This document shows, piece by piece, positions 1 to 27,640 of a DNA stretch of 64,000 nt. A program made the position numbers and the translations under genes. How positions within the stretch are numbered: position 1 is the stretch's first letter; each line of letters opens with the position of its first letter. Source of the stretch: Daphnia carinata (taxonomy: Eukaryota > Arthropoda > Branchiopoda > Diplostraca > Daphniidae); NCBI RefSeq assembly GCF_022539665.2, contig NC_081337.1:4874679-4938678 (forward strand). The letters are read 5' to 3'. Below the pieces are notes generated by a model. The model was given only the letters and a program-made list of their open reading frames with translations, had not been told where the DNA came from and did not search any database.

Positions 1-17
1 AAGTAAGAGAATAGTAT

Positions 18-89
18 CACCTAGTAGCTCAGTGGTTAGAGCGTTGGCCCGGCAAGCCAAAGGTCTGTGGTTCAACTCCCAGACAGGTG
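18..89 (+). other. tRNA-like cloverleaf with A and B boxes (one per 436-bp monomer)
   Basis: Representative copy. The same 72 nt recur at 454, 891, 1327, 1763, 2199, 2635, 3071 and 3507, and throughout array B (13800 to 22958). Acceptor arm: five of seven pairs (18-22 with 85-89). D arm: GCTC/GAGC. Anticodon arm: TTGGC/GCCAA, a perfect five pairs, with a 7-nt loop whose triplet is GGC (alanine-type). The T arm pairs fully only if T68 is bulged. A box TAGCTCAGTGG and B box GGTTCAACTCC match the pol III consensus. Position 33 is C rather than the near-universal U, and the acceptor has two mismatches, so a working tRNA is unlikely. A tRNA-derived SINE head fits better. Confidence 0.85.
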
Positions 90-175
90 TGGTCTATTCT
101 GACATTCCTGTGCGTGGTCGCACCTTAGCCTACCAATTCTGATTGCGAAAAGTATACTATTCCTCTGAAAGGGCT

Positions 176-214
176 CCCGGTTCGACTCCGGAAGGACTAC
201 CGGTTCGATTCCGG
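176..214 (+). promoter_or_regulatory. Two extra B-box/T-arm hairpins in each monomer
   Basis: GGTTCGACTCC (179-189) and GGTTCGATTCC (202-212) both match the TFIIIC B-box consensus. Each sits in a small stem (CCGG/CCGG) with a 7-nt TTCGAYT loop, that is, an orphan tRNA T arm. I see no matching A box upstream of either. Together with the tRNA-like head, each monomer offers three B boxes, about 90 in the window's two arrays. Possible roles are pol III promotion or TFIIIC-only boundary sites. Function is inferred; the motifs are seen directly. Confidence 0.7.
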
Positions 215-297
215 CACTAACTCAACGGGATATCAAGACGGGATGGAAGGGACACGTGGGCTTACGCGGCGTGGCTTTCTCCTAGGCTAATTGGTGG

Positions 298-316
298 CTG
301 ATTGCTTCGCAATCAG
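298..316 (+). other. Perfect hairpin near the monomer's right edge (8-bp stem, TTC loop)
   Basis: ctgattgcttcgcaatcag forms an 8-bp perfect stem closed by GC-TTC-GC. It lies about 30 nt before acataa, the point where both arrays stop. The same loop closure recurs in the ten hairpins at the 3' end of the Penelope-like element (26779-27419). It may be a 3' recognition signal for reverse transcriptase (inference). Confidence 0.65.
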
Positions 317-3300
317 TGTCGATCATCAATTAACCTACATAACATAATCTAACCTTACAAACCTGGCCTAACCTAACCCGTTACCAGCGTTGTAAATGAG
401 ATCGCCCCCAAAAATACACAACAGAACACATGAGTCAAGTAAGAGAATAGTATCACCTAGTAGCTCAGTGGTTAGAGCGTTGGCCCGGCAAGCCAAAGGT
501 CTGTGGTTCAACTCCCAGACAGGTGTGGTCTATTCTGACATTCCTGTGCGTGGTCGCACCTTAGCCTACCAATTCTGATTGCGAAAAGTATACTATTCCT
601 CTGAAAGGGCTCCCGGTTCGACTCCGGAAGGACTACCAGGTTCGATTCCGGCACTAACTCAACGGGATATCAAGACGGGATGGAAGGGACACGTGGGCTT
701 ACGCGGCGTGGCTTTCTCCTAGGCTAATTGGTGGCTGATTGCTTCGCAATCAGTGTCGATCATCAATTAACCTACATAACATAATCTAACCTTACAAACC
801 TGGCCTAACCTAACCCGTTACCAGCGTTGTAAATGAGATCGCCCCCAAAAATACACAACAGAACACATGAGTCAAGTAAGAGAATAGTATCACCTAGTAG
901 CTCAGTGGTTAGAGCGTTGGCCCGGCAAGCCAAAGGTCTGTGGTTCAACTCCCAGACAGGTGTGGTCTATTCTGACATTCCTGTGCGTGGTCGCACCTTA
1001 GCCTACCAATTCTGATTGCGAAAAGTATACTATTCCTCTGAAAGGGCTCCCGGTTCGACTCCGGAAGGACTACCGGTTCGATTCCGGCACTAACTCAACG
1101 GGATATCAAGACGGGATGGAAGGGACACGTGGGCTTACGCGGCGTGGCTTTCTCCTAGGCTAATTGGTGGCTGATTGCTTCGCAATCAGTGTCGATCATC
1201 AATTAACCTACATAACATAATCTAACCTTACAAACCTGGCCTAACCTAACCCGTTACCAGCGTTGTAAATGAGATCGCCCCCAAAAATACACAACAGAAC
1301 ACATGAGTCAAGTAAGAGAATAGTATCACCTAGTAGCTCAGTGGTTAGAGCGTTGGCCCGGCAAGCCAAAGGTCTGTGGTTCAACTCCCAGACAGGTGTG
1401 GTCTATTCTGACATTCCTGTGCGTGGTCGCACCTTAGCCTACCAATTCTGATTGCGAAAAGTATACTATTCCTCTGAAAGGGCTCCCGGTTCGACTCCGG
1501 AAGGACTACCGGTTCGATTCCGGCACTAACTCAACGGGATATCAAGACGGGATGGAAGGGACACGTGGGCTTACGCGGCGTGGCTTTCTCCTAGGCTAAT
1601 TGGTGGCTGATTGCTTCGCAATCAGTGTCGATCATCAATTAACCTACATAACATAATCTAACCTTACAAACCTGGCCTAACCTAACCCGTTACCAGCGTT
1701 GTAAATGAGATCGCCCCCAAAAATACACAACAGAACACATGAGTCAAGTAAGAGAATAGTATCACCTAGTAGCTCAGTGGTTAGAGCGTTGGCCCGGCAA
1801 GCCAAAGGTCTGTGGTTCAACTCCCAGACAGGTGTGGTCTATTCTGACATTCCTGTGCGTGGTCGCACCTTAGCCTACCAATTCTGATTGCGAAAAGTAT
1901 ACTATTCCTCTGAAAGGGCTCCCGGTTCGACTCCGGAAGGACTACCGGTTCGATTCCGGCACTAACTCAACGGGATATCAAGACGGGATGGAAGGGACAC
2001 GTGGGCTTACGCGGCGTGGCTTTCTCCTAGGCTAATTGGTGGCTGATTGCTTCGCAATCAGTGTCGATCATCAATTAACCTACATAACATAATCTAACCT
2101 TACAAACCTGGCCTAACCTAACCCGTTACCAGCGTTGTAAATGAGATCGCCCCCAAAAATACACAACAGAACACATGAGTCAAGTAAGAGAATAGTATCA
2201 CCTAGTAGCTCAGTGGTTAGAGCGTTGGCCCGGCAAGCCAAAGGTCTGTGGTTCAACTCCCAGACAGGTGTGGTCTATTCTGACATTCCTGTGCGTGGTC
2301 GCACCTTAGCCTACCAATTCTGATTGCGAAAAGTATACTATTCCTCTGAAAGGGCTCCCGGTTCGACTCCGGAAGGACTACCGGTTCGATTCCGGCACTA
2401 ACTCAACGGGATATCAAGACGGGATGGAAGGGACACGTGGGCTTACGCGGCGTGGCTTTCTCCTAGGCTAATTGGTGGCTGATTGCTTCGCAATCAGTGT
2501 CGATCATCAATTAACCTACATAACATAATCTAACCTTACAAACCTGGCCTAACCTAACCCGTTACCAGCGTTGTAAATGAGATCGCCCCCAAAAATACAC
2601 AACAGAACACATGAGTCAAGTAAGAGAATAGTATCACCTAGTAGCTCAGTGGTTAGAGCGTTGGCCCGGCAAGCCAAAGGTCTGTGGTTCAACTCCCAGA
2701 CAGGTGTGGTCTATTCTGACATTCCTGTGCGTGGTCGCACCTTAGCCTACCAATTCTGATTGCGAAAAGTATACTATTCCTCTGAAAGGGCTCCCGGTTC
2801 GACTCCGGAAGGACTACCGGTTCGATTCCGGCACTAACTCAACGGGATATCAAGACGGGATGGAAGGGACACGTGGGCTTACGCGGCGTGGCTTTCTCCT
2901 AGGCTAATTGGTGGCTGATTGCTTCGCAATCAGTGTCGATCATCAATTAACCTACATAACATAATCTAACCTTACAAACCTGGCCTAACCTAACCCGTTA
3001 CCAGCGTTGTAAATGAGATCGCCCCCAAAAATACACAACAGAACACATGAGTCAAGTAAGAGAATAGTATCACCTAGTAGCTCAGTGGTTAGAGCGTTGG
3101 CCCGGCAAGCCAAAGGTCTGTGGTTCAACTCCCAGACAGGTGTGGTCTATTCTGACATTCCTGTGCGTGGTCGCACCTTAGCCTACCAATTCTGATTGCG
3201 AAAAGTATACTATTCCTCTGAAAGGGCTCCCGGTTCGACTCCGGAAGGACTACCGGTTCGATTCCGGCACTAACTCAACGGGATATCAAGACGGGATGGA

Positions 3301-3825
3301 AGGGACACGTGGGCTTACGCGGCGTGGCTTTCTCCTAGGCTAATTGGTGGCTGATTGCTTCGCAATCAGTGTCGATCATCAATTAACCTACATAACATAA
3401 TCTAACCTTACAAACCTGGCCTAACCTAACCCGTTACCAGCGTTGTAAATGAGATCGCCCCCAAAAATACACAACAGAACACATGAGTCAAGTAAGAGAA
3501 TAGTATCACCTAGTAGCTCAGTGGTTAGAGCGTTGGCCCGGCAAGCCAAAGGTCTGTGGTTCAACTCCCAGACAGGTGTGGTCTATTCTGACATTCCTGT
3601 GCGTGGTCGCACCTTAGCCTACCAATTCTGATTGCGAAAAGTATACTATTCCTCTGAAAGGGCTCCCGGTTCGACTCCGGAAGGACTACCGGTTCGATTC
3701 CGGCACTAACTCAACGGGATATCAAGACGGGATGGAAGGGACACGTGGGCTTACGCGGCGTGGCTTTCTCCTAGGCTAATTGGTGGCTGATTGCTTCGCA
3801 ATCAGTGTCGATCATCAATTAACCT

Positions 3826-3983
3826 ACATAACATAACCTAACCTAACCTAACCTAACCTAACCTAACCTAACCTAACCTAACCTAACCTAACCTAACCTA
3901 ACCTAACCTAACCTAACCTAACCTAACCTAACCTAACCTAACCTAACCTAACCTAACCTAACCTAACCTAACCTAACCTAACC
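3826..3983. repeat. Interstitial telomeric tract (CCTAA)n
   Basis: About 30 perfect CCTAA repeats, the C-strand of the TTAGG arthropod telomere. The left junction is the acataa edge of array A; the right junction opens into a ~150-bp satellite. The orientation places the chromosome terminus to the left. Confidence 0.97.
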
Positions 3984-5460
3984 CACGCTTATAACCGCAT
4001 CTTACACCCATGCCAACAACGGCCGTTACAAACCTGCATATCCATACCTCTACGCCGACATCGGCCTAGACGACTTACACATTTTCATGCCGACTAATGT
4101 GCGAAACTCACGGCCATGGCCCTAAATTTACCATCGTGAATCGCAAACGAGCGATTTACATACCCAGGCCGACAACGGCCTTATTAACCTGCATAATCAT
4201 GCCTCTACGCCGACACCGGCCTGAACGATTTACATATCCTCACGCCGACTAAGGTGTAAAACTCACGGCAATAGCCATAAACTGACCACCTGGAGTCACG
4301 AACGAGCGATTTACATACCCAGGCCGACAACGGCCTTTATTAACCTGCATAATCATACCTCTACGCCGACATCGGCCTGAACGATTTACATACCCTCACG
4401 CCGACTAAGGTGTAAAACCTGCGGACATGGCCTTAATTTGACCATCGGGAGTCACGAACGAGTGATTGACATACCCAGGTCGACAACGGCCTACATAACC
4501 GTGCCTCTACGCCGACATCGGCCTGAAAGATTTACATATTATCACACCGACCAAGGTGCGAAACTCACGGTCATAGCCGTAAACCAACCATCGGGAGTCA
4601 TGAACGAGTGATGTACATACCCAGGCCGACAACGGCCTGCATAATCATGCCTCTACGCTGACATCGGCCTGAACGATTTACATATTACCACACCGACTAA
4701 GGTGTAAAACTCACGGCCATAGCCTTAAATTAACCATCGGGGGTCACGAACAAGTGATTTAAATACCCAGGCCGACAACGGCCTACATAACCGTGCCTCT
4801 ACGCCGACATCGGCCCGAACGATCTACATAGTATCACGCTAACTAAGATGTGAAACTCACGGCCATAGCCGTAAACTAACCATCGGGAGTCACGAACGAG
4901 TGATTTACATACCCAGGCCGACAACGGCCTGCATAATGATGCCTCTACGCCGATATCGGCCTGAACGATTTGCATATTATCACGCCGTCGAAGGTGTAAA
5001 ACTCACGGCCATAGCCTTAAATTAACCATCGGGAGTCACGAACAAGTGATTTAAATACCCAGGCCGACAACGGCCTGCATAATCATGCCTCTACGCCGAC
5101 ATCGGCCTGAACGATTTACATATTATCACGCCGTCTGAGGTGTAAAAATCACGGCCATAACCGTAAACTAACCATCGGCAGTCACGAACGAGTGATTTAC
5201 ACACCCAGGCCGACAACGGCCTACATAATCATGCCTCTACGCCGACATCGGCCTGAATAACACAGCGTCACGCCGACTAAGGTGTGAACACTCACGGCCA
5301 TAGCCTTAAACCTACAACCATGAGTCACGGACAAGCGGTCTACGTACCCAGGCCAACAACGGCCCTTAATAATCTGCATACTCACGCCCCTACGCCGACA
5401 CTAGCCCCGAAGGAAGGCTACATATTCTCACGCCGACGGTGGCCTCAATAAACACTTATA
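3984..5460. repeat. ~150-bp satellite with GGCCG..CGGCC palindromes
   Basis: About nine diverged units of roughly 144-159 bp. The phrase tacccaggccgac recurs near 4161, 4315, 4474, 4618, 4766, 4910, 5056, 5202 and, altered, 5346. Each unit contains the short hairpins ggccgacaacggcc and gccgacatcggc. Units differ by many substitutions, so the block is older than the 436-bp arrays. I see no gene in it. Confidence 0.9.
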
Positions 5461-5592
5461 AACGCTCGGGATCACGACCCGACCGACCAACCACGAACAA
5501 GTATTAGTAACAAATCAATGTATTAGCATACATTTCCTGCGACGGTGACACACGTCGAGATTGGTTTTGGAAAAACAAAAAAGGAAGGAAAC

Positions 5593-5988
5593 TCACACCG
5601 ATAGTCGGTAACGCTTAGGATTATAAAAATAAATGACACGTAGGCGTTGAAGCCGAACATAACACGTGAAATCGTTAACAGAGAGTTGGAATGGTACCGC
5701 TAGACGAGCTGAATTATCATCAGCGACCGCGGAAGCATGTCCCACACTCGACACCCCTCCACCATGACTGGAACCCGGGCGAACAGCACACACCGGGCGG
5801 GAGCGGACGACCGATTCGGCGTCTGGGGCCGCTGGCGGTTCTTCTCCACCACCGTCCAGGGTTATGAGTGGAATCTCCTTGATGATAACAGGAGACTCGG
5901 ACCGATCACGAGACCTTTTCATCGATCGCGTTAACATAACGCGAGACTCGGACCGATCACGAGACCTTCCCATTGATCGCGTTAACAT
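5593..5988 (-). CDS. Hypothetical 131-aa protein with duplicated SR-rich N terminus
   Basis: This ORF has an ATG start at 5988 and is flanked on both sides by related satellite blocks. The first 34 residues are two copies of a 17-residue block beginning MLTRSM and containing RSRDRSES, encoded by a 51-bp direct DNA duplication (about 5887-5988). The middle has an acidic/proline patch (GGGEEPPAAP), and the rest shows no motif I recognise. The serine/arginine blocks resemble low-complexity RNA-binding tails, but no function can be assigned. It is richer in GC than its surroundings. It could be a chance ORF in satellite spacer; the in-frame duplication argues weakly for coding. Confidence 0.35.
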   Translation of the reverse strand: MLTRSMGRSRDRSESRVMLTRSMKRSRDRSESPVIIKEIPLITLDGGGEEPPAAPDAESVVRSRPVCAVRPGSSHGGGVSSVGHASAVADDNSARLAVPFQLSVNDFTCYVRLQRLRVIYFYNPKRYRLSV

Positions 5989-6240
5989 CTACACCAAATT
6001 CCAAAACAATACATATATATCTATGCATATATAAAAAAATAACAACAGACTAACTTAGTACAACCAAATGAACAAACCTACCTTCCTTGAGAATGTAATG
6101 ATGACTGAGGCTTAAACCTTACCAAACATGATGCAATACATCAATCATACGTCGGCAAATACGCAACTATAGCGTGGTTATCGCCAATACCAATAATTCC
6201 AACGCAACACGTACGAATAAACTTCCGGGAAGATCGTATC
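5989..6240. other. AT-rich spacer, no gene seen
   Basis: The sequence between the minus-strand ORF's start and the next satellite block contains short A and T runs and TATA-like stretches (around 6015-6035). These could serve the minus-strand ORF as a promoter, but nothing decisive is visible. Confidence 0.4.
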
Positions 6241-7435
6241 CAATTCTTGGAATACCCATACTTGTTAACCTTGCGCCGACATTGGCCCCAACAATTTGCA
6301 TATAAGTACATCTGCACCGGTAACGGCCCAAAATAGCTTTAGCCAAATGCCCTTTGCAGAAACGCCTTAATGGGCCCTAATTACATGCCTCTCAACCACC
6401 AATGGCCATGACATGCCCCTTCGCCGACATCGGCCTCGATAATTTACATGTTTTCACGACAATAACAATGTGAAACGCCCCGCCCATGGCATCTAAACTA
6501 GCCACCGGGATCCACGCAACGAGTCCCAGACCCCAGCCAACAACGGCCTCGACTAATTTGCATATACATGCCTCGACGCCGACATCGGCCTCAAATATTT
6601 ACATGTTTGCACGCCGACGACGGTGTAAAAATTCGCGCCCATGGCCTCTAAACTAGCCACCGGGACTCACGAACGCTTCAGGCAACGACTAAATACCTAT
6701 ACCGACAACGGTCCCAACTAATTTGCATACACATGCCTCTACGCCGACATCGGCCTCGTTAATTTACATGTTTGCACGCCGGCAACGGTGCAGAACTCAC
6801 GCCCATGGCCCCTAAACTAGCCACAATGATCCACGAACGCTTCACGGTGATGATTTACATACCTATGCCGACAACGGCCTCAACTAATTTGCATATACAT
6901 GCCTCTACGCCGACATCGGCCTTATTAACTTACATGGTTGCACGCCGACAACGGTGCAAAATTCACACCCATGGCCTCTAAACTAGCCACAATGATTCAC
7001 GAACGCTTCACGGTAATGATTTACATACCTATGCCGACAACGGCCTCAACTAATTTGCATACACATACCTCTACGCCGACATCGGCCTTATTAAATTACA
7101 TGTTTGCACGCCGACAACGGTGCAAAATTCACGCCCATGGCCTCTAAACTAGCCACAATGATTCACGAACACTTCACGGTAATGATCTACATACCTATGC
7201 CGACAACGGCCTCAACTAATTTGCATAACACATGCCTCTACACCGACATCGGCCTCATCAATTTACATGTTTGCACGCCGACAAATGTGTAAAAGTCACG
7301 CCCATGGCCTCTAAACTAGCCACCGCGACTCACGAACGCTCCACGATAATAATTTACGTACCTATGCCAACACCGGCCTCAACTAATTTGCATACACATG
7401 CCTCTACGCCGACATCGGCCTCATTAAACGATGCA
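6240..7435. repeat. ~166-bp satellite related to the 3984-5460 family
   Basis: About seven units. The best conserved four repeat at 166-bp spacing (cctatgccgacaacggcc near 6862, 7028, 7194 and, altered, 7360). They share the gccgacaacggcc and gccgacatcggc palindromes with the left satellite, so the two blocks are branches of one family. The minus-strand ORF lies between them. Unit length is not a multiple of three, and the short ORFs in it are repeat shadows. Confidence 0.88.
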
Positions 7436-7593
7436 CAATCAAAACAAATTATATATTTATACCCGAACGCCGACAACAAACCACAACGGCCTGCAAACAC
7501 CCACTCATTTGCATACATATAAGATTGTACGTAGGAATACACACCACCATTAGTGGTAATGACAACGTTCAACGTTGCACCTTTTATGGTTCT

Positions 7594-7605
7594 CTATATA
7601 TAAAA
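7594..7605 (+). promoter_or_regulatory. Candidate upstream TATA element
   Basis: ctatatataaaatgg is followed by two in-register AAAATGG phrases (7602-7622). It may be an alternative promoter for the unit downstream. The TATA at 7774 is the better candidate because a splice donor follows it. Confidence 0.3.
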
Positions 7606-7773
7606 TGGCGGCCAACAAAATGGCCCCCGGAGAACCTACTGCGAAAAGCATACAGAAAAATAATTCCCAGAACAACCCGGACGAATGTACCGGAAGACAG
7701 ACAGGGTTGCCGCCACCCACACAAAAAATGCGCATTAAGAAACAATTGTGAGAATTGGCAACAGGCCCTAGCC

Positions 7774-7780
7774 TATATAA
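7774..7780 (+). promoter_or_regulatory. TATA box of the 8.7-9.8 kb transcription unit
   Basis: cctatataaatcgg is a strong pol II TATA match. About 90 bp downstream is a consensus 5' splice site, GTAAGTT (7866-7872). Acceptor-like sequence before the ORF (for example ctctcgctgcag ending near 8660) would allow a spliced 5' leader. The splice junction itself is inferred. Confidence 0.45.
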
Positions 7781-7900
7781 ATCGGCAAAAGGGAAGCCAC
7801 TGCCTCTTTCCACGCCTGACCCTCGCCGCGAACAGTCCTCTGATACTGACTCCTACAGCAGAGATGTAAGTTGTTTCTAGAATTAGATTCTTAAGGATTT

Positions 7901-8420
7901 GGCTCCCCAACCGCATGGCGTGACTATGCCCTGTTTAACTTGCCAGTGAGGGCAATACTCGGCTTCCACCACCCATGCGTACTAAGGCTCGTTCTTAGCA
8001 TAACCGACAAAAAAATGCTAATCTAGCTCCCCAACCGTGTAGAACGATTGGGCCCCGGTTCAAGTTGTTCTAGAAACAACACTCGGTGCCCACCCTCTAC
8101 ACGTACTAAGGCTCGTTGTGCGTAACCGATAAACGCTCTTCGCACAAATCAAATGTAACTAATGGCTCCCCAACCGTGTGATGTGACTACGCCCTGTTTA
8201 ATTTGTTCTCACGAACAACACTCGGCCTCCACCACTCACACGTACTAAGGCTCGTTCTGGCGTAACCGACAAAAAAACGCCTTTGTGGTTCCTCTCTTTT
8301 AACAGAGACAAGATGGCTCCCCAACCGTGTGACGCGTCCATGCCTTGTTCAACTTGTTCGCAGAGAACAACACTCGGCTTCCAACGCCCACACGTACTAA
8401 GGCTCGTTTAGCGTCATCGA
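7901..8420. repeat. Four-unit tandem repeat (124-152 bp) in the presumed leader intron
   Basis: ggctccccaaccg recurs at 7901, 8025 (altered), 8163 and 8315. Each copy continues through a diverged block ending in a phrase close to cgtactaaggctcgtt. It lies just after the GTAAGT donor, so it may sit in the first intron of the neighbouring unit. Confidence 0.8.
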
Positions 8421-8745
8421 GAAACGCTCCAACATCAAGGTACAATCATGGAATCATATTTTTGAAAAAAAGACCTTTTCTTTTTTTCTACGATGGAACC
8501 AGGCCAGGCCCTGGAAGCACTAATACTACTTTAAAATTAAGCCTAGAAATTAAGTCACCAAACACCCTATCTTCTTTCTTTTTTCGAACCCTACCTGTAA
8601 ACGTTAAAATCACCTCTTCATTTGCCTTGGTGTCCAGTGGCTGCAGTCTCTCGCTGCAGCCGGCCCCCCAAACTATAAGAATATAGGAGAGGGCCGAAAT
8701 TCTTGGTCGTCCATCGAGAGATGGCGACGGTTTGGCATCCTACTG

Positions 8746-9648: not shown

Positions 9649-9710
9649 ATGTACTACCGATTCATGCTATCTTTTTAAAAAAACCAACAGCACCACCGAA
9701 CGCTGACATT

Positions 9711-9818
9711 ATGCACCTGGCACTCCTGAACCCAGACGACTACGATCTTATCGATACTATCTCCTTGTACCGTCTGTGTACCATTACTGAATCCTCTGAT
9801 TCTGGATCTGATGAATAA
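9711..9818 (+). CDS. Small acidic ORF (35 aa) downstream of the 300-aa ORF
   Basis: It starts at ATG 9711 and stops at 9816-9818, overlapping an AATAAA poly(A) signal. The product begins MHLALLNPDDYDLID and ends ESSDSGSDE, so it is acidic. Its frame is -1 relative to the 300-aa ORF and stays open back through that ORF's stop. It could therefore be a second small ORF or a frameshifted C-terminal extension, though no canonical slippery heptamer is in register near the junction. Chance cannot be excluded. Confidence 0.3.
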   Translation: MHLALLNPDDYDLIDTISLYRLCTITESSDSGSDE

Positions 9819-9879
9819 ACACTCTTGGCATCGCCAACCACTATTGAATTGTTGCCAACTCAATACCTAACTCGGACGG

Positions 9880-10640: not shown

Positions 10641-11016
10641 ACCGAGGCGTACAGGCGGGATTAACTTAATCCCATGCATGTGAATAATAGGCACAAGCGG
10701 TTGAAACCGGCAATGCCCACTAAAACTGACGCTATGAATAATGGTTAAACACCACTAGAGGTGCGGCCCACCCACCCACCCCCTTTTATAAAAAAGGAGG
10801 AAAATAAGGAAAAGGAATGAAGGATCCGGTCAAGAACCGTTGATAAAGCAATGAAAGGATAGAAAAAGAAAGACAAACCACCGATAGAAATGAAGAAAAA
10901 TTTTTTTATACATTTTTGGTCTTTTATACTTTTTTGGTTTTTTTGATTTTTCCCGAATGAAGAATAATAAAAAATCAGTTAAGAAATAAGAAACTCTGAG
11001 CCAGTCGTGCTATCAT
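10640..11016. other. Low-complexity spacer, no gene seen
   Basis: Purine-rich (around 10790-10890) and then T-rich (10895-10960) runs precede the end of the minus-strand ORF. I see no coding or structured element. Confidence 0.5.
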
Positions 11017-16400: not shown

Positions 16401-19400
16401 AGTAAGAGAATAGTATCACCTAGTAGCTCAGTGGTTAGAGCGTTGGCCCGGCAAGCCAAAGGTCTGTGGTTCAACTCCCAGACAGGTGTGGTCTATTCTG
16501 ACATTCCTGTGCGTGGTCGCACCTTAGCCTACCAATTCTGATTGCGAAAAGTATACTATTCCTCTGAAAGGGCTCCCGGTTCGACTCCGGAAGGACTACC
16601 GGTTCGATTCCGGCACTAACTCAACGGGATATCAAGACGGGATGGAAGGGACACGTGGGCTTACGCGGCGTGGCTTTCTCCTAGGCTAATTGGTGGCTGA
16701 TTGCTTCGCAATCAGTGTCGATCATCAATTAACCTACATAACATAATCTAACCTTACAAACCTGGCCTAACCTAACCCGTTACCAGCGTTGTAAATGAGA
16801 TCGCCCCCAAAAATACACAACAGAACACATGAGTCAAGTAAGAGAATAGTATCACCTAGTAGCTCAGTGGTTAGAGCGTTGGCCCGGCAAGCCAAAGGTC
16901 TGTGGTTCAACTCCCAGACAGGTGTGGTCTATTCTGACATTCCTGTGCGTGGTCGCACCTTAGCCTACCAATTCTGATTGCGAAAAGTATACTATTCCTC
17001 TGAAAGGGCTCCCGGTTCGACTCCGGAAGGACTACCGGTTCGATTCCGGCACTAACTCAACGGGATATCAAGACGGGATGGAAGGGACACGTGGGCTTAC
17101 GCGGCGTGGCTTTCTCCTAGGCTAATTGGTGGCTGATTGCTTCGCAATCAGTGTCGATCATCAATTAACCTACATAACATAATCTAACCTTACAAACCTG
17201 GCCTAACCTAACCCGTTACCAGCGTTGTAAATGAGATCGCCCCCAAAAATACACAACAGAACACATGAGTCAAGTAAGAGAATAGTATCACCTAGTAGCT
17301 CAGTGGTTAGAGCGTTGGCCCGGCAAGCCAAAGGTCTGTGGTTCAACTCCCAGACAGGTGTGGTCTATTCTGACATTCCTGTGCGTGGTCGCACCTTAGC
17401 CTACCAATTCTGATTGCGAAAAGTATACTATTCCTCTGAAAGGGCTCCCGGTTCGACTCCGGAAGGACTACCGGTTCGATTCCGGCACTAACTCAACGGG
17501 ATATCAAGACGGGATGGAAGGGACACGTGGGCTTACGCGGCGTGGCTTTCTCCTAGGCTAATTGGTGGCTGATTGCTTCGCAATCAGTGTCGATCATCAA
17601 TTAACCTACATAACATAATCTAACCTTACAAACCTGGCCTAACCTAACCCGTTACCAGCGTTGTAAATGAGATCGCCCCCAAAAATACACAACAGAACAC
17701 ATGAGTCAAGTAAGAGAATAGTATCACCTAGTAGCTCAGTGGTTAGAGCGTTGGCCCGGCAAGCCAAAGGTCTGTGGTTCAACTCCCAGACAGGTGTGGT
17801 CTATTCTGACATTCCTGTGCGTGGTCGCACCTTAGCCTACCAATTCTGATTGCGAAAAGTATACTATTCCTCTGAAAGGGCTCCCGGTTCGACTCCGGAA
17901 GGACTACCGGTTCGATTCCGGCACTAACTCAACGGGATATCAAGACGGGATGGAAGGGACACGTGGGCTTACGCGGCGTGGCTTTCTCCTAGGCTAATTG
18001 GTGGCTGATTGCTTCGCAATCAGTGTCGATCATCAATTAACCTACATAACATAATCTAACCTTACAAACCTGGCCTAACCTAACCCGTTACCAGCGTTGT
18101 AAATGAGATCGCCCCCAAAAATACACAACAGAACACATGAGTCAAGTAAGAGAATAGTATCACCTAGTAGCTCAGTGGTTAGAGCGTTGGCCCGGCAAGC
18201 CAAAGGTCTGTGGTTCAACTCCCAGACAGGTGTGGTCTATTCTGACATTCCTGTGCGTGGTCGCACCTTAGCCTACCAATTCTGATTGCGAAAAGTATAC
18301 TATTCCTCTGAAAGGGCTCCCGGTTCGACTCCGGAAGGACTACCGGTTCGATTCCGGCACTAACTCAACGGGATATCAAGACGGGATGGAAGGGACACGT
18401 GGGCTTACGCGGCGTGGCTTTCTCCTAGGCTAATTGGTGGCTGATTGCTTCGCAATCAGTGTCGATCATCAATTAACCTACATAACATAATCTAACCTTA
18501 CAAACCTGGCCTAACCTAACCCGTTACCAGCGTTGTAAATGAGATCGCCCCCAAAAATACACAACAGAACACATGAGTCAAGTAAGAGAATAGTATCACC
18601 TAGTAGCTCAGTGGTTAGAGCGTTGGCCCGGCAAGCCAAAGGTCTGTGGTTCAACTCCCAGACAGGTGTGGTCTATTCTGACATTCCTGTGCGTGGTCGC
18701 ACCTTAGCCTACCAATTCTGATTGCGAAAAGTATACTATTCCTCTGAAAGGGCTCCCGGTTCGACTCCGGAAGGACTACCGGTTCGATTCCGGCACTAAC
18801 TCAACGGGATATCAAGACGGGATGGAAGGGACACGTGGGCTTACGCGGCGTGGCTTTCTCCTAGGCTAATTGGTGGCTGATTGCTTCGCAATCAGTGTCG
18901 ATCATCAATTAACCTACATAACATAATCTAACCTTACAAACCTGGCCTAACCTAACCCGTTACCAGCGTTGTAAATGAGATCGCCCCCAAAAATACACAA
19001 CAGAACACATGAGTCAAGTAAGAGAATAGTATCACCTAGTAGCTCAGTGGTTAGAGCGTTGGCCCGGCAAGCCAAAGGTCTGTGGTTCAACTCCCAGACA
19101 GGTGTGGTCTATTCTGACATTCCTGTGCGTGGTCGCACCTTAGCCTACCAATTCTGATTGCGAAAAGTATACTATTCCTCTGAAAGGGCTCCCGGTTCGA
19201 CTCCGGAAGGACTACCGGTTCGATTCCGGCACTAACTCAACGGGATATCAAGACGGGATGGAAGGGACACGTGGGCTTACGCGGCGTGGCTTTCTCCTAG
19301 GCTAATTGGTGGCTGATTGCTTCGCAATCAGTGTCGATCATCAATTAACCTACATAACATAATCTAACCTTACAAACCTGGCCTAACCTAACCCGTTACC

Positions 19401-22400
19401 AGCGTTGTAAATGAGATCGCCCCCAAAAATACACAACAGAACACATGAGTCAAGTAAGAGAATAGTATCACCTAGTAGCTCAGTGGTTAGAGCGTTGGCC
19501 CGGCAAGCCAAAGGTCTGTGGTTCAACTCCCAGACAGGTGTGGTCTATTCTGACATTCCTGTGCGTGGTCGCACCTTAGCCTACCAATTCTGATTGCGAA
19601 AAGTATACTATTCCTCTGAAAGGGCTCCCGGTTCGACTCCGGAAGGACTACCGGTTCGATTCCGGCACTAACTCAACGGGATATCAAGACGGGATGGAAG
19701 GGACACGTGGGCTTACGCGGCGTGGCTTTCTCCTAGGCTAATTGGTGGCTGATTGCTTCGCAATCAGTGTCGATCATCAATTAACCTACATAACATAATC
19801 TAACCTTACAAACCTGGCCTAACCTAACCCGTTACCAGCGTTGTAAATGAGATCGCCCCCAAAAATACACAACAGAACACATGAGTCAAGTAAGAGAATA
19901 GTATCACCTAGTAGCTCAGTGGTTAGAGCGTTGGCCCGGCAAGCCAAAGGTCTGTGGTTCAACTCCCAGACAGGTGTGGTCTATTCTGACATTCCTGTGC
20001 GTGGTCGCACCTTAGCCTACCAATTCTGATTGCGAAAAGTATACTATTCCTCTGAAAGGGCTCCCGGTTCGACTCCGGAAGGACTACCGGTTCGATTCCG
20101 GCACTAACTCAACGGGATATCAAGACGGGATGGAAGGGTACACGTGGGCTTACGCGGCGTGGCTTTCTCCTAGGCTAATTGGTGGCTGATTGCTTCGCAA
20201 TCAGTGTCGATCATCAATTAACCTACATAACATAATCTAACCTTACAAACCTGGCCTAACCTAACCCGTTACCAGCGTTGTAAATGAGATCGCCCCCAAA
20301 AATACACAACAGAACACATGAGTCAAGTAAGAGAATAGTATCACCTAGTAGCTCAGTGGTTAGAGCGTTGGCCCGGCAAGCCAAAGGTCTGTGGTTCAAC
20401 TCCCAGACAGGTGTGGTCTATTCTGACATTCCTGTGCGTGGTCGCACCTTAGCCTACCAATTCTGATTGCGAAAAGTATACTATTCCTCTGAAAGGGCTC
20501 CCGGTTCGACTCCGGAAGGACTACCGGTTCGATTCCGGCACTAACTCAACGGGATATCAAGACGGGATGGAAGGGACACGTGGGCTTACGCGGCGTGGCT
20601 TTCTCCTAGGCTAATTGGTGGCTGATTGCTTCGCAATCAGTGTCGATCATCAATTAACCTACATAACATAATCTAACCTTACAAACCTGGCCTAACCTAA
20701 CCCGTTACCAGCGTTGTAAATGAGATCGCCCCCAAAAATACACAACAGAACACATGAGTCAAGTAAGAGAATAGTATCACCTAGTAGCTCAGTGGTTAGA
20801 GCGTTGGCCCGGCAAGCCAAAGGTCTGTGGTTCAACTCCCAGACAGGTGTGGTCTATTCTGACATTCCTGTGCGTGGTCGCACCTTAGCCTACCAATTCT
20901 GATTGCGAAAAGTATACTATTCCTCTGAAAGGGCTCCCGGTTCGACTCCGGAAGGACTACCGGTTCGATTCCGGCACTAACTCAACGGGATATCAAGACG
21001 GGATGGAAGGGACACGTGGGCTTACGCGGCGTGGCTTTCTCCTAGGCTAATTGGTGGCTGATTGCTTCGCAATCAGTGTCGATCATCAATTAACCTACAT
21101 AACATAATCTAACCTTACAAACCTGGCCTAACCTAACCCGTTACCAGCGTTGTAAATGAGATCGCCCCCAAAAATACACAACAGAACACATGAGTCAAGT
21201 AAGAGAATAGTATCACCTAGTAGCTCAGTGGTTAGAGCGTTGGCCCGGCAAGCCAAAGGTCTGTGGTTCAACTCCCAGACAGGTGTGGTCTATTCTGACA
21301 TTCCTGTGCGTGGTCGCACCTTAGCCTACCAATTCTGATTGCGAAAAGTATACTATTCCTCTGAAAGGGCTCCCGGTTCGACTCCGGAAGGACTACCGGT
21401 TCGATTCCGGCACTAACTCAACGGGATATCAAGACGGGATGGAAGGGACACGTGGGCTTACGCGGCGTGGCTTTCTCCTAGGCTAATTGGTGGCTGATTG
21501 CTTCGCAATCAGTGTCGATCATCAATTAACCTACATAACATAATCTAACCTTACAAACCTGGCCTAACCTAACCCGTTACCAGCGTTGTAAATGAGATCG
21601 CCCCCAAAAATACACAACAGAACACATGAGTCAAGTAAGAGAATAGTATCACCTAGTAGCTCAGTGGTTAGAGCGTTGGCCCGGCAAGCCAAAGGTCTGT
21701 GGTTCAACTCCCAGACAGGTGTGGTCTATTCTGACATTCCTGTGCGTGGTCGCACCTTAGCCTACCAATTCTGATTGCGAAAAGTATACTATTCCTCTGA
21801 AAGGGCTCCCGGTTCGACTCCGGAAGGACTACCGGTTCGATTCCGGCACTAACTCAACGGGATATCAAGACGGGATGGAAGGGACACGTGGGCTTACGCG
21901 GCGTGGCTTTCTCCTAGGCTAATTGGTGGCTGATTGCTTCGCAATCAGTGTCGATCATCAATTAACCTACATAACATAATCTAACCTTACAAACCTGGCC
22001 TAACCTAACCCGTTACCAGCGTTGTAAATGAGATCGCCCCCAAAAATACACAACAGAACACATGAGTCAAGTAAGAGAATAGTATCACCTAGTAGCTCAG
22101 TGGTTAGAGCGTTGGCCCGGCAAGCCAAAGGTCTGTGGTTCAACTCCCAGACAGGTGTGGTCTATTCTGACATTCCTGTGCGTGGTCGCACCTTAGCCTA
22201 CCAATTCTGATTGCGAAAAGTATACTATTCCTCTGAAAGGGCTCCCGGTTCGACTCCGGAAGGACTACCGGTTCGATTCCGGCACTAACTCAACGGGATA
22301 TCAAGACGGGATGGAAGGGACACGTGGGCTTACGCGGCGTGGCTTTCTCCTAGGCTAATTGGTGGCTGATTGCTTCGCAATCAGTGTCGATCATCAATTA

Positions 22401-23285
22401 ACCTACATAACATAATCTAACCTTACAAACCTGGCCTAACCTAACCCGTTACCAGCGTTGTAAATGAGATCGCCCCCAAAAATACACAACAGAACACATG
22501 AGTCAAGTAAGAGAATAGTATCACCTAGTAGCTCAGTGGTTAGAGCGTTGGCCCGGCAAGCCAAAGGTCTGTGGTTCAACTCCCAGACAGGTGTGGTCTA
22601 TTCTGACATTCCTGTGCGTGGTCGCACCTTAGCCTACCAATTCTGATTGCGAAAAGTATACTATTCCTCTGAAAGGGCTCCCGGTTCGACTCCGGAAGGA
22701 CTACCGGTTCGATTCCGGCACTAACTCAACGGGATATCAAGACGGGATGGAAGGGACACGTGGGCTTACGCGGCGTGGCTTTCTCCTAGGCTAATTGGTG
22801 GCTGATTGCTTCGCAATCAGTGTCGATCATCAATTAACCTACATAACATAATCTAACCTTACAAACCTGGCCTAACCTAACCCGTTACCAGCGTTGTAAA
22901 TGAGATCGCCCCCAAAAATACACAACAGAACACATGAGTCAAGTAAGAGAATAGTATCACCTAGTAGCTCAGTGGTTAGAGCGTTGGCCCGGCAAGCCAA
23001 AGGTCTGTGGTTCAACTCCCAGACAGGTGTGGTCTATTCTGACATTCCTGTGCGTGGTCGCACCTTAGCCTACCAATTCTGATTGCGAAAAAGTATACTA
23101 TTCCTCTGAAAGGGCTCCCGGTTCGACTCCGGAAGGACTACCGGTTCGATTCCGGCACTAACTCAACGGGATATCAAGACGGGGAAGGGACACGTGGGCT
23201 TACGCGGCGTGGCTTTCTCCTAGGCTAATTGGTGGCTGATTGCTTCGCAATCAGTGTCGATCATCAATTAACCTACATAACATAA
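13419..23285 (+). repeat. 436-bp tandem array B (tRNA-like monomer)
   Basis: About 22.6 head-to-tail copies of the same monomer as array A. The first is truncated on its left, starting inside the tRNA-like T arm at caactcccagacagg. Units are almost identical. Private changes are few: a 5-A instead of 4-A run in the edge units near 13494, 13929 and 23086; one substitution near 16186; one inserted T near 20139; and a 4-bp deletion near 23181 in the last unit. Variants concentrated at the edges are typical of arrays homogenised by unequal exchange. The array ends at acataa (23280-23285), the same motif as array A, and the retroelement's ORF1 frame opens at the next base. Confidence 0.97.
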
Positions 23286-24890
23286 CCACCAAACACACAC
23301 AATACAAACAATATTTACACACAAATCACAGAAAACACACAAATCACACAGAACACGAACACGGAAACCACACACAACACAGAAACCACACAAAACACAG
23401 ACGCCTCAGGGTCGCAAGGACAAGAAACAAGGGATACACTCAACAGCTCCACAGACACATTAGAAAACCTAGTCATACTAGCTAATGAAGCCGAGGACGA
23501 CAGCACGCCCTCTCTACTCGACTTGATCCCACCCCCGGATCTCCCAGCAACAACCTTACTTGACTCAAGATGCGTACGCATGGGTAAACTGCTGGCTGAG
23601 TTAGAGAACGTGCTGGCAGCTAAAAAACGACACATAAACGAGCTAGCCGATGATCGCCCACCGATAATCCCCCTAGCCAAGTCGTTCCAATGCCCCTCTA
23701 TGCAAAAGGTAGCTTCAAAAGACCTACTCAACAAGCTTAACTTAGCAATGATGGATTGTGCTAGGAACTGTAGTCTCGCCTTGATCCAAGCAGAAGAAGA
23801 AGTAGAAAAAGGCCTCAGGAAGGAAATAGACGACCTCTGGGAAGGGTGGAACATGTCTCATAACGAGCTACATTCAATAAAATACATCAAGGAAAGCAGA
23901 CTTTCGCGCATACACCCATACACAACCCGCACAGACCCAATCACCTTCTTTGAAATCACGGGGACAGGGGATGGGATCAGGATCTCACCGCACATCTCCG
24001 CCGCTAGGGCAAACACATCGGGACATAAGATACCAGGGAAAGCAAAGGGAGCGAAAGCGACCAGAGCAACCTCGGAAGCTCCGGCGACTGCGGTACCTGA
24101 CGGAACTAAAAACAAAAACAAAAATAAGAATAGGAGGCCTAGCAACAACAATAAAACTACTGGGAAACGGGAAACAACAAAAAGAAACAACAATAATAAT
24201 AATAAAGAAACTACTTCAAGGGGGGATACAACAAAAGGAAAAAACAATCAACAACAGAAAGGAAACAGGAACAACAACCAAAATAGGAACAACAACCAAC
24301 AACAAAACAGGGGAAACAAGAGCAACATTCAACAACAAACAGGGAACAATAATTCAGGGAACAACAATACAGGGAATCAAAACAGGGGACGGGGGGAAAT
24401 TTCAGCACAAAACAGACGCAACACAACACAACCAAACCCTAACACCAATAGAACACGCTATGCACCACAAACTAAAACTCGCAACACAGAAACCAGGGAT
24501 AACGACAGGGAACACACAAGGAACAACAACAGGGTATGCAACAGGGAGCACTCGAATAACAATAGCAGGATTTTTACAAGAAATGATGACAGGGTATACA
24601 CACGTAGAGACAACAGACAACCAGGGAACTATACAGGAAATAACAATAGACACACGGTAGAAAATCCAAAAAACGACCAGCGATACACAGCCCCCCATCT
24701 ACGAAGGGAACCACCCGAGCGCCGCCCCTCCAACCCACCACGCCGGGAACCAGACGTTCGAATCACCCTCCCCCCACTGAGACCATCGAGGTGGGACAAA
24801 CAGCCCGACGAGTGGCGCTCGCTAAGAAACGTACCGAGCGACGGGCCAGATCAGAACAGGGAAGGAGGGAGGAACTGCTTCAGGAAATAA
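23286..24890 (+). CDS. Penelope-like element ORF1, gag-like, N/Q/R-rich
   Basis: The frame is open from the array junction (stop codon at 23283-23285) but has no ATG until 23580, which gives 436 aa from MGKLLAEL. Either translation starts there or an upstream exon or leader supplies the start. The non-ATG part is Thr/Asn/His/Gln-rich. After 23580, about 115 residues look helical and possibly coiled (LLAELENVLAAKKRHINE; LIQAEEEVEKGLRKEIDDL). Residues ~160-400 are Asn/Gln/Arg/Thr repeats of low complexity, then a Pro/Arg tail. Such a protein plausibly binds the element RNA. It overlaps ORF2 by 241 nt and carries the frameshift heptamer at 24668-24674. There is no zinc knuckle. This is a real coding frame: it is long, intact, and in -1 register with RT. 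Confidence 0.75.
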   Translation, partial: PPNTHNTNNIYTQITENTQITQNTNTETTHNTETTQNTDASGSQGQETRDTLNSSTDTLENLVILANEAEDDSTPSLLDLIPPPDLPATTLLDSRCVRMGKLLAELENVLAAKKRHINELADDRPPIIPLAKSFQCPSMQKVASKDLLNKLNLAMMDCARNCSLALIQAEEEVEKGLRKEIDDLWEGWNMSHNELHSIKYIKESRLSRIHPYTTRTDPITFFEITGTGDGIRISPHISAARANTSGHKIPGKAKGAKATRATSEAPATAVPDGTKNKNKNKNRRPSNNNKTTGKRETTKRNNNNNNKETTSRGDTTKGKNNQQQKGNRNNNQNRNNNQQQNRGNKSNIQQQTGNNNSGNNNTGNQNRGRGEISAQNRRNTTQPNPNTNRTRYAPQTKTRNTETRDNDREHTRNNNRVCNREHSNNNSRIFTRNDDRVYTRRDNRQPGNYTGNNNRHTVENPKNDQRYTAPHLRREPPERRPSNPPRREPDVRITLPPLRPSRWDKQPDEWRSLRNVPSDGPDQNREGGRNCFRK

Positions 24891-26734
24891 TTTGCAACGA
24901 CGCAGGGGCGATCCTTGATGAGGGAGCCAAGGACGCCCTCCTAAAAGGACTTTCTTTCATCCCTACAGCTAGTTTTAACAAAGAAACCTTACAGAAGGAT
25001 CTATCAAATTTAAAACGTAGCATTAACCTCAAATTACACTGGAACATGAATAAAAATGGGGAATACAGGACTAGTATGATCTCCAGAATCCTTAAATCCG
25101 ATTGGGAGCCACCCGAGGCGCTCAAAGAGTCTAACACACTCTGGGTTGAGCTCTGCTCTTCCACAAACCCCAAGGATAGGTTCAAAACAAACTTCCCCCC
25201 GAAAACCGCTAGGGCATGGAAGAAGTTAACCACCGATGAACGCTGGTTCGTTCTCAAAGCAGACAAAGGTGGGAAAACAGTAATTTGGGGAAGGGATAAT
25301 TACAGAAAGGAAGCATTGCGTCAACTAAGTGACATAAAAACATACAAGGAACTCTCAAAGACCGAAGCAGAGGAATACATAGGGATAATCCACACTTATA
25401 AAATAAAAGCAACAAATGCGCTGGAAAGACAGGGTTGCATCACAAAAGCAGAAGGAAACAGGGTTAGAAACCAACAGGTGTCGTTGCCCGCCACATATTT
25501 CCTCCCTAAAATCCACAAAGATAAACGCGAGGACACGGGAACATTCGCCGCGAGGCCAATCATAGCAGCAGTAGGAAGCCCCTTTAAATCTCTAGATGAA
25601 TATCTAGCCAGACTTACGGCCTGCCTCCTGCCTTGCATCCCGGGGTCTCTTATCGATACAGCAGCGCTTCTCAGAGATTTGGCCAACGTTCCAAAACTCC
25701 CGCCAGGAGCCAAGCTCTTTTCGGCCGACGTAGTATCTCTCTACCCCTCGATCGACTGGTCAGAAGCCATAAATGACTCCACTAGCTTTTATATGGATCA
25801 CCTACACGTAGTTAAGCAATTTTGTGAAGATAACAACATGCTCCCCCCTCCACCACACGACATCTTCAGATACATTTTGCAGACTCTGCTAGAAAACAAC
25901 GTCTTTCACTTCCAAAACGAGAAATATTATAGGCAGCTTAAAGGAACAGCGATGGGGTGTTCAATGTCAGTCTTTATGGCAAACACCTTCATGTATAGAA
26001 AGACCAGGCACCTCATTGAAGGCCCGCCGGCCGAACTTCTTTACTTCGGGCGTTACATTGACGACATAGTAGCTATTTGGACAGGCTCTAATGACGAAAT
26101 ACCCAACATTTTTAGAAATGTGGTAGACGAGAACATAGAGCTCACTTACGTCTATGGAGGAAAAACCCTTGAGGCACTCGACCTACTGATCGAGATCGAG
26201 GACGATGGTTCTCTCTCGACACGACTCTATAGGAAGCCAACAGAGGGCACCCAATTCGTACATTGGTCCTCAGCTCACCCCCAAAATTTAAAAGGGTCTA
26301 TCCCCTACGCCCAGCTCCTTAGGATCAAAAGGAACTGTAGCAAGGACTCTGACTTCCTACGGGAAGCAGCTACACTCCTACGCAAGTTCGAGAACAGGGG
26401 ATATCCCAAAAACACCTTAGCAAAAGCCTACGAGAAAGCCCTCCTTATCGATAGATCCACCCTCCTCCATACAGGAAGTCGCAAAGATAAGCCAGAGGAA
26501 GAACGGTTCACAGTAGTCTCTGACTTCCATGAACCGCTTACCAAACAACTTAGGTCAAACATCAGCACCTTTTACAATAGACTCCAAAAAACCCCACTAA
26601 TTCTAGAAAGGGAGGAGTATCTTGGCCCACAACTACCAGCTGACCCACCTCGTCTCGCCTTTAGGGCAGGGAAATCACTGGGTAGCGTTCTGGGACCACT
26701 ATTTAAGAAAGGAAAACCTAAGCAAAACAACTAA
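24650..26734 (+). CDS. Penelope-like reverse transcriptase (ORF2), no GIY-YIG domain
   Basis: The frame is open for 694 codons from 24650. Numbering here is from GTG 24791 (647 residues). The Penelope-type N-terminal motif LLKGLSFIPT is at residues 50-59. RT motifs: A, SADVVSLYPSID (catalytic D313); B, GTAMGCSMSVFMANTFM (385-401); C, RYIDDIV with catalytic D424 and D425. Downstream come the family-typical RLYRKPT and HW..AHPQNLKGSIPYAQLLR thumb region. The protein ends in a basic tail with no room for a GIY-YIG endonuclease, so it belongs with endonuclease-deficient members. The first ATG (25046) lies beyond LLKGLSFIPT, arguing for frameshift expression from ORF1. All key residues are present, so it looks active. 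Confidence 0.93.
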   Translation, partial: THGRKSKKRPAIHSPPSTKGTTRAPPLQPTTPGTRRSNHPPPTETIEVGQTARRVALAKKRTERRARSEQGRREELLQEIICNDAGAILDEGAKDALLKGLSFIPTASFNKETLQKDLSNLKRSINLKLHWNMNKNGEYRTSMISRILKSDWEPPEALKESNTLWVELCSSTNPKDRFKTNFPPKTARAWKKLTTDERWFVLKADKGGKTVIWGRDNYRKEALRQLSDIKTYKELSKTEAEEYIGIIHTYKIKATNALERQGCITKAEGNRVRNQQVSLPATYFLPKIHKDKREDTGTFAARPIIAAVGSPFKSLDEYLARLTACLLPCIPGSLIDTAALLRDLANVPKLPPGAKLFSADVVSLYPSIDWSEAINDSTSFYMDHLHVVKQFCEDNNMLPPPPHDIFRYILQTLLENNVFHFQNEKYYRQLKGTAMGCSMSVFMANTFMYRKTRHLIEGPPAELLYFGRYIDDIVAIWTGSNDEIPNIFRNVVDENIELTYVYGGKTLEALDLLIEIEDDGSLSTRLYRKPTEGTQFVHWSSAHPQNLKGSIPYAQLLRIKRNCSKDSDFLREAATLLRKFENRGYPKNTLAKAYEKALLIDRSTLLHTGSRKDKPEEERFTVVSDFHEPLTKQLRSNISTFYNRLQKTPLILEREEYLGPQLPADPPRLAFRAGKSLGSVLGPLFKKGKPKQNN
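24668..24674 (+). promoter_or_regulatory. Candidate -1 ribosomal frameshift site A AAA AAC
   Basis: The heptamer AAAAAAC lies in register with ORF1 (codons AAA 24669-24671, AAC 24672-24674), 19 nt after the ORF2 frame opens at 24650. ORF2 is in the -1 frame and has no ATG until 25046, after conserved RT N-terminal residues. A AAA AAC is a canonical retroviral-type slippery sequence. A downstream pseudoknot or stem was not established by eye; the following 60 nt are C-rich. Confidence 0.6.
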
Positions 26735-26754
26735 AAACAGATAGAGCCCCTAGC

Positions 26755-27440
26755 GGCCACGAAGGGAACTCTCTTTTGGTTCGTGTGCTTCGCACACGAA
26801 CACTGTAACACTCTGCTACAGCAAGAGCCCCAAGCGGCCGGGGGGAGTACTCTTTTTGGTTCGTGTGCTACGCACACGAACACTATAGTCAGAGCCCCCA
26901 AGCGGCCAGAGAGAGGTCCCCTTTTTTGGTTCGTGTGCTTCGCACACGAACACTACAGCCAGAGCCCCTGGCGGCCATTAGAAAGACTCTTTTTGGTTCG
27001 TGTGCTTCGCACACGAACTCTACAGCCAGAGGCCCAGCGGCCCTAGAAGGGACTCTTCTTGGTTCGTGTGCTCCGCACACGAACACTGCAGCTAGAGCCC
27101 CTGGCGGCCATTGAGAGGACTCTTTTTGGTTCGTGTGCTGCGCACACGAACTCTACAGCCAGAGGCCCGGCGGCCTTAGGGAGGTCCCTTTTTGGTTCGT
27201 GTGCTTCGCACACGAACACGACAGCTAGAGCCCCTAGCGGCAAAGAATGGGAACTCTTTTTGGTTCGTGTGCTTCGCACACGAACACTGTAGTTAGAGCC
27301 CCCGGCGGCCACTGTAAGGACTCTTTTTGGTTCGTGTGCTTCGCACACGAACACTACAGCTAGAGCCCCTGGCGGCCAGGGTGAGAACTCTCTTTGGTTC
27401 GTGTGCTTCGCACACGAACACTACAGCTAAGTGCCCATGG
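26755..27440 (+). repeat. Ten tandem ~67-bp repeats, each with a perfect hairpin (retroelement 3' region)
   Basis: 23-nt hairpins start at 26779, 26859, 26929, 26996, 27062, 27129, 27195, 27263, 27330 and 27397. Each has a perfect 10-bp stem (gttcgtgtgc/gcacacgaac) and a 3-nt loop. Stems are invariant while the middle loop base varies (TTC, TAC, TCC, TGC) and spacers vary, which points to selection on structure. Spacers share agagcccc..gcggcc. ORFs seen across them on both strands are repeat shadows. Confidence 0.92.
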
Positions 27441-27508
27441 CGGCCACAGAGGGAAGGGTACGTAGGCGCGGCTTCCTGACCCCCGTGCCTAGCGCAGGGT
27501 AAGCTAAC

Positions 27509-27640
27509 CATAACCTAACCTAACCTAACCTAACCCAACCTAACCTAACCTAACCTAACCTAACCTAACCTAACCTAACCTAACCTAACCTAACCTAACC
27601 TAACCTAACCTAACCTAACCTAACCTAACCTAACCTAACC
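27509..27640. repeat. Telomeric tract (CCTAA)n at the retroelement 3' end
   Basis: About 26 CCTAA units with one CCCAA variant. On the left is the retroelement 3' end; on the right the sequence switches without transition into the 5.3-kb AT-rich unit. It is likely a former chromosome end, later buried under added elements. Confidence 0.96.

Follow-up and report, generated by a model that had tools for sequence, protein, structure and literature searches.

A telomere-associated 436-bp repeat with a tRNA-like head and an endonuclease-less Penelope-like element in Daphnia carinata

The window analysed here is a 64-kb stretch of the Daphnia carinata genome (C7:4874679-4938678, on the 11.6-Mb scaffold C7). 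Two kinds of element within it are the subject of this report: tandem arrays of a 436-bp unit that carries a tRNA-like head and a degenerate block of telomere repeats, and a Penelope-like element (PLE) that encodes a reverse transcriptase (RT) without a recognisable endonuclease. The original prediction, made from the sequence of the window, had taken the unit for a short interspersed element (SINE)-like transcript of RNA polymerase III (pol III), which the PLE enzyme copies onto chromosome ends and which is then amplified. Genome searches covered 108 Mb in 106 contigs. The principal features, in window coordinates, are the following.

1-3836, + strand: array 1, of which 8.8 units of 436 bp fall within the window (Tandem Repeats Finder, TRF, 99%)
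17-91, + strand: tRNA-like head of the first unit (ARAGORN, Ala-GGC)
298-316, + strand: hairpin of the first unit, 8-bp stem, TTC loop
331-378, + strand: degenerate telomere block of the first unit, 48 bp (coverage by CCTAA rotations against shuffles)
3837-3983, + strand: tract joined to array 1, with (CCTAA)n at 3837-3981 (TRF and sequence reading)
13418-23285, + strand: array 2, starting at unit position 73, with 21 complete units; the final unit stops at unit position 347 on the PLE
23286-27499, + strand: endonuclease-less PLE, one copy found
23286-24890, + strand: PLE open reading frame (ORF) 1, 534 aa, open up to the left edge, first ATG at 23580
24650-26734, + strand: PLE ORF2, RT (RVT_1), 694 aa, 562 aa from the ATG at 25046
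26779-27419, + strand: ten PLE hairpins, 10-bp stems, mostly about 67 bp apart
27500-27640, + strand: tract adjoining the 3' end of the PLE, with (CCTAA)n at 27514-27638; the host subtelomere starts to its right

The 436-bp unit and its arrays

The monomer with tRNA-like head and hairpin that had been proposed is present in both arrays, in which TRF finds a repeat unit of 436 bp at 99%. The window holds 31 tRNA-like heads, matching the Rfam tRNA model at 48.6 bits (gathering score 29), so that the head is of the predicted pol III type found in SINEs; two more B-box-like sequences lie elsewhere in the unit. TTTT is absent and the longest T run is three, and the unit therefore lacks the usual pol III terminator that a SINE would carry. 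The first TTTT beyond array 1 is at 4082, and the first beyond the edge of array 2 is at 24571, inside the PLE. The fold of a 327-nt unit RNA has no excess stability (z -0.48, with 30 of 100 shuffles equally good). Unit positions 331-378 align to telomere repeats at 82%. CCTAA rotations cover 31 bases of a 60-base interval at this block, a value reached by none of 1000 dinucleotide shuffles (mean 7.8, maximum 24).

Array 1 extends about 2.1 kb past the left edge of the window, up to a 100-N gap, and a third array, with 13 complete units, lies on scaffold C5, enclosed by TTAGG repeats (340 bp on the inner side and about 2.2 kb on the outer side). The tRNA-like head points toward the chromosome tip in all three arrays, the tip side being taken from the CCTAA strand. 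A 37-base unit core, searched with up to three mismatches, gave 50 genome matches, all exact (14 and 23 in the C7 arrays, 13 on C5); the head gave 49 exact matches and nothing further within three mismatches, and the hairpin 51 exact matches plus three look-alikes outside the arrays with three mismatches each. Single monomers, which the prediction led one to look for, were not found in the assembly outside the three arrays on two scaffolds when core and head are searched at up to three mismatches, and the dispersed copies typical of a SINE are thus missing. A DNA search with the unit added no further place, as a lower bound, two of three candidate regions having been scored and array 2 not being among them. 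A dispersed SINE parent of the head was likewise considered and rejected, none being found in the genome at that threshold. The telomeric location held up, units having been found only in telomere-associated arrays; their role as a PLE-dependent SINE did not.

Complete units are nearly uniform: 34 of 46 share one sequence, from which each of the other 12 departs at a single base (11 by an insertion, one by a substitution). Unit junctions are constant and units are near-identical within and between scaffolds, and this speaks for copying as DNA. Variants specific to one array are located at array edges. Array 2 has an extra A at unit position 147 in units 1, 2 and 23 of 23 only, a placement at the ends only that has a chance of 4 in 1771 by a post hoc hand count, and the end units carry private changes (a substitution in unit 1, a three-base deletion in unit 23). 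In the C5 array an extra A at position 409 is carried by 7 of 13 complete units, namely the outermost, the third and the five innermost. The partial unit with which array 1 ends shows no difference. Array length and homopolymer variants are those of the assembly, in which homopolymer error is possible. Divergent edge units around a homogeneous interior are usual in satellites copied as DNA.

Five array edges are resolved, three of them within the telomere block and two outside it. Array 1 ends on the right at unit position 347, on CCTAA. Array 2 ends at the same position on the PLE, where ...acataa is followed directly by CCACC..., a join that one telomere unit (TAACC) could span; its left edge lies at position 73, within the tRNA-like head, and on its right it meets the left edge of the PLE, not CCTAA. 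On C5 the right edge is at position 239 (...atcaagac followed by CTAACC), through a rearranged unit that holds an internal telomere scrap, and at the left, tip-side edge (CCTAA)n is fused to TAACCTAACCCGTTACC inside the telomere block, the outer join falling in the CCTAACCC stretch of the unit. The expectation that 'acataa' forms a fixed right end agrees with two of three right edges and fails on C5. This end (position 347) sits inside the telomere-derived block, and given the telomere-like stretch there a telomere join is expected anyway for both 'acataa' edges. That both kinds of element end on (CCTAA)n on the same strand is correct for array 1 and the PLE; array 2 adjoins the left edge of the PLE.

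The Penelope-like element and its relation to the unit

As predicted, no endonuclease was recognised in the PLE. Within ORF2, RVT_1 (5.6e-8) is the only Pfam family at E up to 1, and the 163 aa after YRKPT contain no recognisable GIY-YIG domain; PF01541, the GIY-YIG endonuclease family, is found in none of the best 120 of 362 relatives. The catalytic residues D228 and I338-D339-D340 are invariant in an alignment of 27 sequences. Assignment of the RT to the PLE type follows the original prediction and PLE motifs, the alignment containing no named PLE. Among the matches listed, the closest named relative of the element is from Daphnia magna (70%). A PDB sequence search with the RT was uninformative (best E 0.019, Drt3a reverse transcriptase). 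The element is probably truncated at its 5' side, as suggested by ORF1, which is open to the very edge of the element and has protein-like sequence before its first ATG. Its 3' end meets (CCTAA)n, oriented as one would expect if copying were primed on the 3' end of a chromosome. The PLE is a new crustacean member of the known endonuclease-deficient class.

Only one copy was found. The other matches in the genome comprise 16 rows at six places and are 31-51% identical; ten contain in-frame stops and the remaining six span only 55-82 query residues. With flanks of about 1.5 kb, these 16 loci contain no TGCTTCGCA on either strand and no three telomere units in a row, one of them having a two-unit TTAGG. 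Diverged, mostly broken and without the hairpin core, they were rejected as a test of the shared 3' structure that had been expected among other copies. Two broken copies, at C7:11562487-11563898 and C12:7620-8896, match the same query coordinates with similar scores and probably reflect a duplication, or haplotypes left unmerged. Viral contigs yielded no relative of the PLE or of the unit.

The ten hairpins near the PLE 3' end were found as described, and a 24-mer of them occurs nowhere else in the genome at up to three mismatches. The claim that GC-TTC-GC closes both hairpin types applies to the unit and to seven of the ten PLE hairpins, the other three having TAC, TCC and TGC loops. The hairpins of unit and PLE have nine palindromic bases in common, and their core GTGCTTCGCAC has 75 occurrences in the genome, seven of which are in the PLE, whereas the reversed control has 33; enrichment of the closure is thus roughly twofold, yet it is not special to unit and PLE. 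BLAST of the unit against the PLE (E up to 10) aligned nothing beyond telomere-like bases and a single antisense match of 16 bp, so the shared 3' tail of a SINE and its partner is missing. A role of the shared hairpin as an RT recognition signal was rejected, the core being widespread and the flanking sequence unrelated.

In partnerships between SINEs and long interspersed elements (LINEs), a 3' tail is common to both partners. The unit resembles such SINEs in its tRNA-like head and the hairpin near its 3' side, but differs in having no common tail, no dispersed copies found and no terminator. A PLE studied in vitro needs RNA around the ORF start and starts copying in an AC-rich stem-loop (PMC11167929, in part), and the rule of a LINE-type 3' hairpin may not apply to PLEs; that element carries an endonuclease, and its behaviour may not transfer. 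Because the hairpin core is widespread and there are no shared tail, no TTTT and no unit found outside the arrays, dependency on the PLE is not supported, and nothing found shows the retroelement moving the unit.

Chromosomal setting of the window

The window lies mid-scaffold (C7, 4.87 of 11.6 Mb) and is nevertheless judged subtelomeric by origin, because a 180-bp satellite that it contains directly follows a telomere tract on scaffold C9. Two further features belong to this setting.

3984-13417, + strand: subtelomeric block between the arrays, several tandem-repeat families (TRF)
28283-45627, no strand assigned: 180-bp satellite of the host subtelomere, four blocks about 5.3 kb apart (TRF)

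The four copies of the block of about 5.3 kb (window 27641-45627) each contain some eight to nine 180-bp satellite units (TRF), and the sequence at 28283 is 89-90% identical to C9 sequence directly after about 3.2 kb of CCTAA adjoining a 100-N gap. To the left of array 1, the scaffold gap (C7:4872458-4872557) is followed by an AT-rich tandem repeat with a 141-bp step. Gaps within scaffolds are adjoined by telomeric tracts or subtelomeric arrays at C4:4795773-4802565, C5:8835626-8840448, C7:4872458-4872557 and C9:5968267-5971630; they measure 100 N at the C4, C7 and C9 sites and 2652 N at the C5 site. That the coordinates are internal probably reflects scaffold joins made where contigs end in telomeric sequence. 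Telomeric tracts were seen on C4, C5, C6, C7, C8 and C9 in a partial census (two of five edge phases searched), and 436-bp units occur on two of these scaffolds. The C4 tract is broken by variant repeats such as CCAGG runs beside a long TTAGG block (L051 3330-5100), and a LINE-like open sequence with an apparent APE-type endonuclease, read by eye, stands right after the gap that follows the C5 telomere (L050 3450-5000).

In the 9.4-kb block between the arrays, an ORF at 8746-9648 (300 aa) has a single genome match, and its four homologues, all without a name, are 49-52% identical; Pfam gives nothing above cut-off, and the label "gag-like" is an impression only. A minus-strand ORF at 11017-11679 (220 aa) has no significant Pfam match. 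The block also contains a 292-bp repeat family (9865-10592) within which short runs of CCTAACCTAACC occur, making it the second repeat to carry a telomere-like seed. Four tRNA-like sequences in inverted arrangement at 51503-53648 (Rfam 27.5-39.6 bits, the weakest under the gathering score) are possibly a palindromic tRNA-derived repeat. At 60524-63998, as judged by eye, kinase-like exons precede an extended series of ankyrin-like repeats of 111 bp.

The telomerase gene TERT shows 89% identity to Daphnia magna across 99% of a 760-aa query. It has a long open frame, so the PLE is probably dispensable for telomere upkeep. TTAGG telomeres and telomerase activity are reported for D. pulex and D. 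pulicaria (PMC4427308, in part).

Origin of the arrays and comparison with known systems

The reading we favour, with a probability of roughly 0.6, is that the unit is a tRNA-derived subtelomeric satellite, telomere-seeded through its own degenerate block and amplified and homogenised as DNA by recombination, the PLE being a separate event. A short or broken chromosome end would pair through the telomere block with another telomere or array and be extended by recombination-dependent copying (break-induced, rolling-circle or by unequal exchange), after which telomerase would add TTAGG; arrays could thereby grow and homogenise as DNA, as proposed for TALT (template for ALT) in Caenorhabditis elegans. 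Earlier, the endonuclease-less RT would have copied its own RNA onto an exposed end, and the PLE would then have lost its 5' part before array 2 came to overlie it. Units inside or adjoining telomere tracts on two scaffolds, the common direction of all three arrays and the array-specific variants at array edges are in favour of such seeding and copying. So are the near-identity of the units, the significant telomere block within them, the TTAGG on both sides of the C5 array, the three of five edges that lie in the block, the failure to find core or head elsewhere at up to three mismatches, and the presence of TERT.

Several observations weigh on the other side. The assembly contains only three arrays, the outer end of those on C7 is lost in the scaffold gap, and recombination is deduced from sequence; the array length and homopolymer variants are assembly-based. 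Neither the left edge of array 2 (position 73) nor the right edge on C5 (position 239) falls within the block. The same base, 347, marks two of the three right edges; one of these adjoins the PLE directly, no more than a single telomere unit intervening, and a fixed RNA 3' end would be a simpler account of this shared edge.

That coincidence is the strongest point for the original prediction, a SINE-like unit RNA reverse-transcribed by the PLE enzyme. The tRNA-like head, the orientation of the unit, which is that of the PLE, and the joining of both to CCTAA through ...CATAA are also in keeping with it, though the shared orientation is no guide between the readings, as it would likewise be fixed by a telomere block inside the unit. 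In one form of this idea, a transcript of the last unit of array 1 would cross (CCUAA)n, the first TTTT being met only at 4082, and the read-through RNA would anneal to a TTAGG overhang and be copied by the PLE enzyme or telomerase, the planted unit being multiplied by DNA recombination; such copying would give identical right edges where the unit meets CCTAA and where it meets the PLE. We consider such a PLE-dependent telomeric SINE unlikely. The hairpin core is widespread, nothing past the telomere-like bases forms a common tail, no TTTT or solo unit was found, the junctions are constant and the units near-identical, the C5 right edge differs, and the unit RNA folds no better than shuffles; the in-vitro start in an AC-rich stem-loop, rather than in a LINE-type 3' hairpin, also speaks against reverse transcription of the unit, as far as the rule carries over from an element with an endonuclease (PMC11167929, in part). 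The original proposal as a whole, with amplification after PLE copying, is improbable on the same grounds. No title in the surveyed Penelope, SINE and telomere literature names a PLE-dependent telomeric SINE, and none in the surveyed Daphnia telomere, subtelomere and satellite literature concerns the 436-bp repeat, most subscription literature lying outside both surveys.

The main rival to telomere seeding is plain subtelomeric exchange, in which unequal exchange and gene conversion among chromosome ends would maintain an ordinary satellite with a passive telomere block. Near-identity within and between scaffolds together with divergent edge units needs nothing more, but the placement of three of five edges in the block and the telomere repeats on either side of the C5 array exceed what chance would suggest, although the number is small, and we regard this alternative as rather doubtful. 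It is very improbable that arrays or joins were made or mis-sized by the assembler. The mid-scaffold window, with a 100-N gap 2.1 kb to the left of it, and the C4 and C9 telomere tracts at similar gaps would fit such an artefact; three arrays with different flanks on two scaffolds, the absence of N at the joins inside the window and the independent occurrence of the 180-bp satellite after a telomere tract on C9 argue against it.

Telomere seeding has a close parallel in TALT, a DNA block flanked by telomere-like sequence that stands in tandem at C. elegans telomeres (PMC4595603, in part; architecture and tandem telomeric arrays also in PMC9066243). Like TALT, the Daphnia unit is a block of non-telomeric DNA with telomere-like sequence on its flanks, arranged in a single orientation and in tandem at chromosome ends, with TTAGG on both sides of the C5 array and the block at 331-378 within each unit. 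Changes in TALT copy number are attributed to telomere damage and repair (PMC4595603, in part; PMC9066243). Unlike TALT, the unit is 436 bp long, tRNA-derived and carried by a genome with TERT, its telomere block is degenerate and 48 bp long, and it is known here from an assembly alone, not from survivors or mutants.

The metazoan retrozymes are small tandem non-coding repeats of about 150-300 bp, and hammerhead ribozymes occur in PLEs too (PMC7761336, in part). The unit is also a small tandem non-coding repeat, but has 436 bp, a tRNA-like head and no detected hammerhead; a retrozyme was rejected, the window giving tRNA matches only and no hammerhead at E up to 1, a search that could miss minimal PLE variants.

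Endonuclease-deficient PLEs move largely to chromosome ends, telomeric repeats being then added to the truncated 5' end, and both kinds of PLE co-exist in the kuruma shrimp, so that crustaceans are not a first (PMC3846280, in part). The Daphnia element resembles the Athena type in its RT with catalytic aspartates and without GIY-YIG, its position at a chromosome end, its 3' end on telomere repeats and its apparent 5' truncation, all from one copy; it differs from other endonuclease-deficient PLEs in that one copy was found and in its ten 3' hairpins, seen nowhere else in the genome.

If telomere seeding is true, telomere-seeded arrays stand at two chromosome ends of an animal whose telomerase gene is apparently intact. 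Comparable arrays are those of telomerase-deleted worm survivors and some wild C. elegans strains, and, by the title of the paper, a similar telomere-seeded array is described in mouse embryonic stem cells (PMC7889907). The PLE is a further example, from a crustacean, of an endonuclease-less element located at a telomere. Daphnia can be maintained clonally, so that array growth could be followed over generations.

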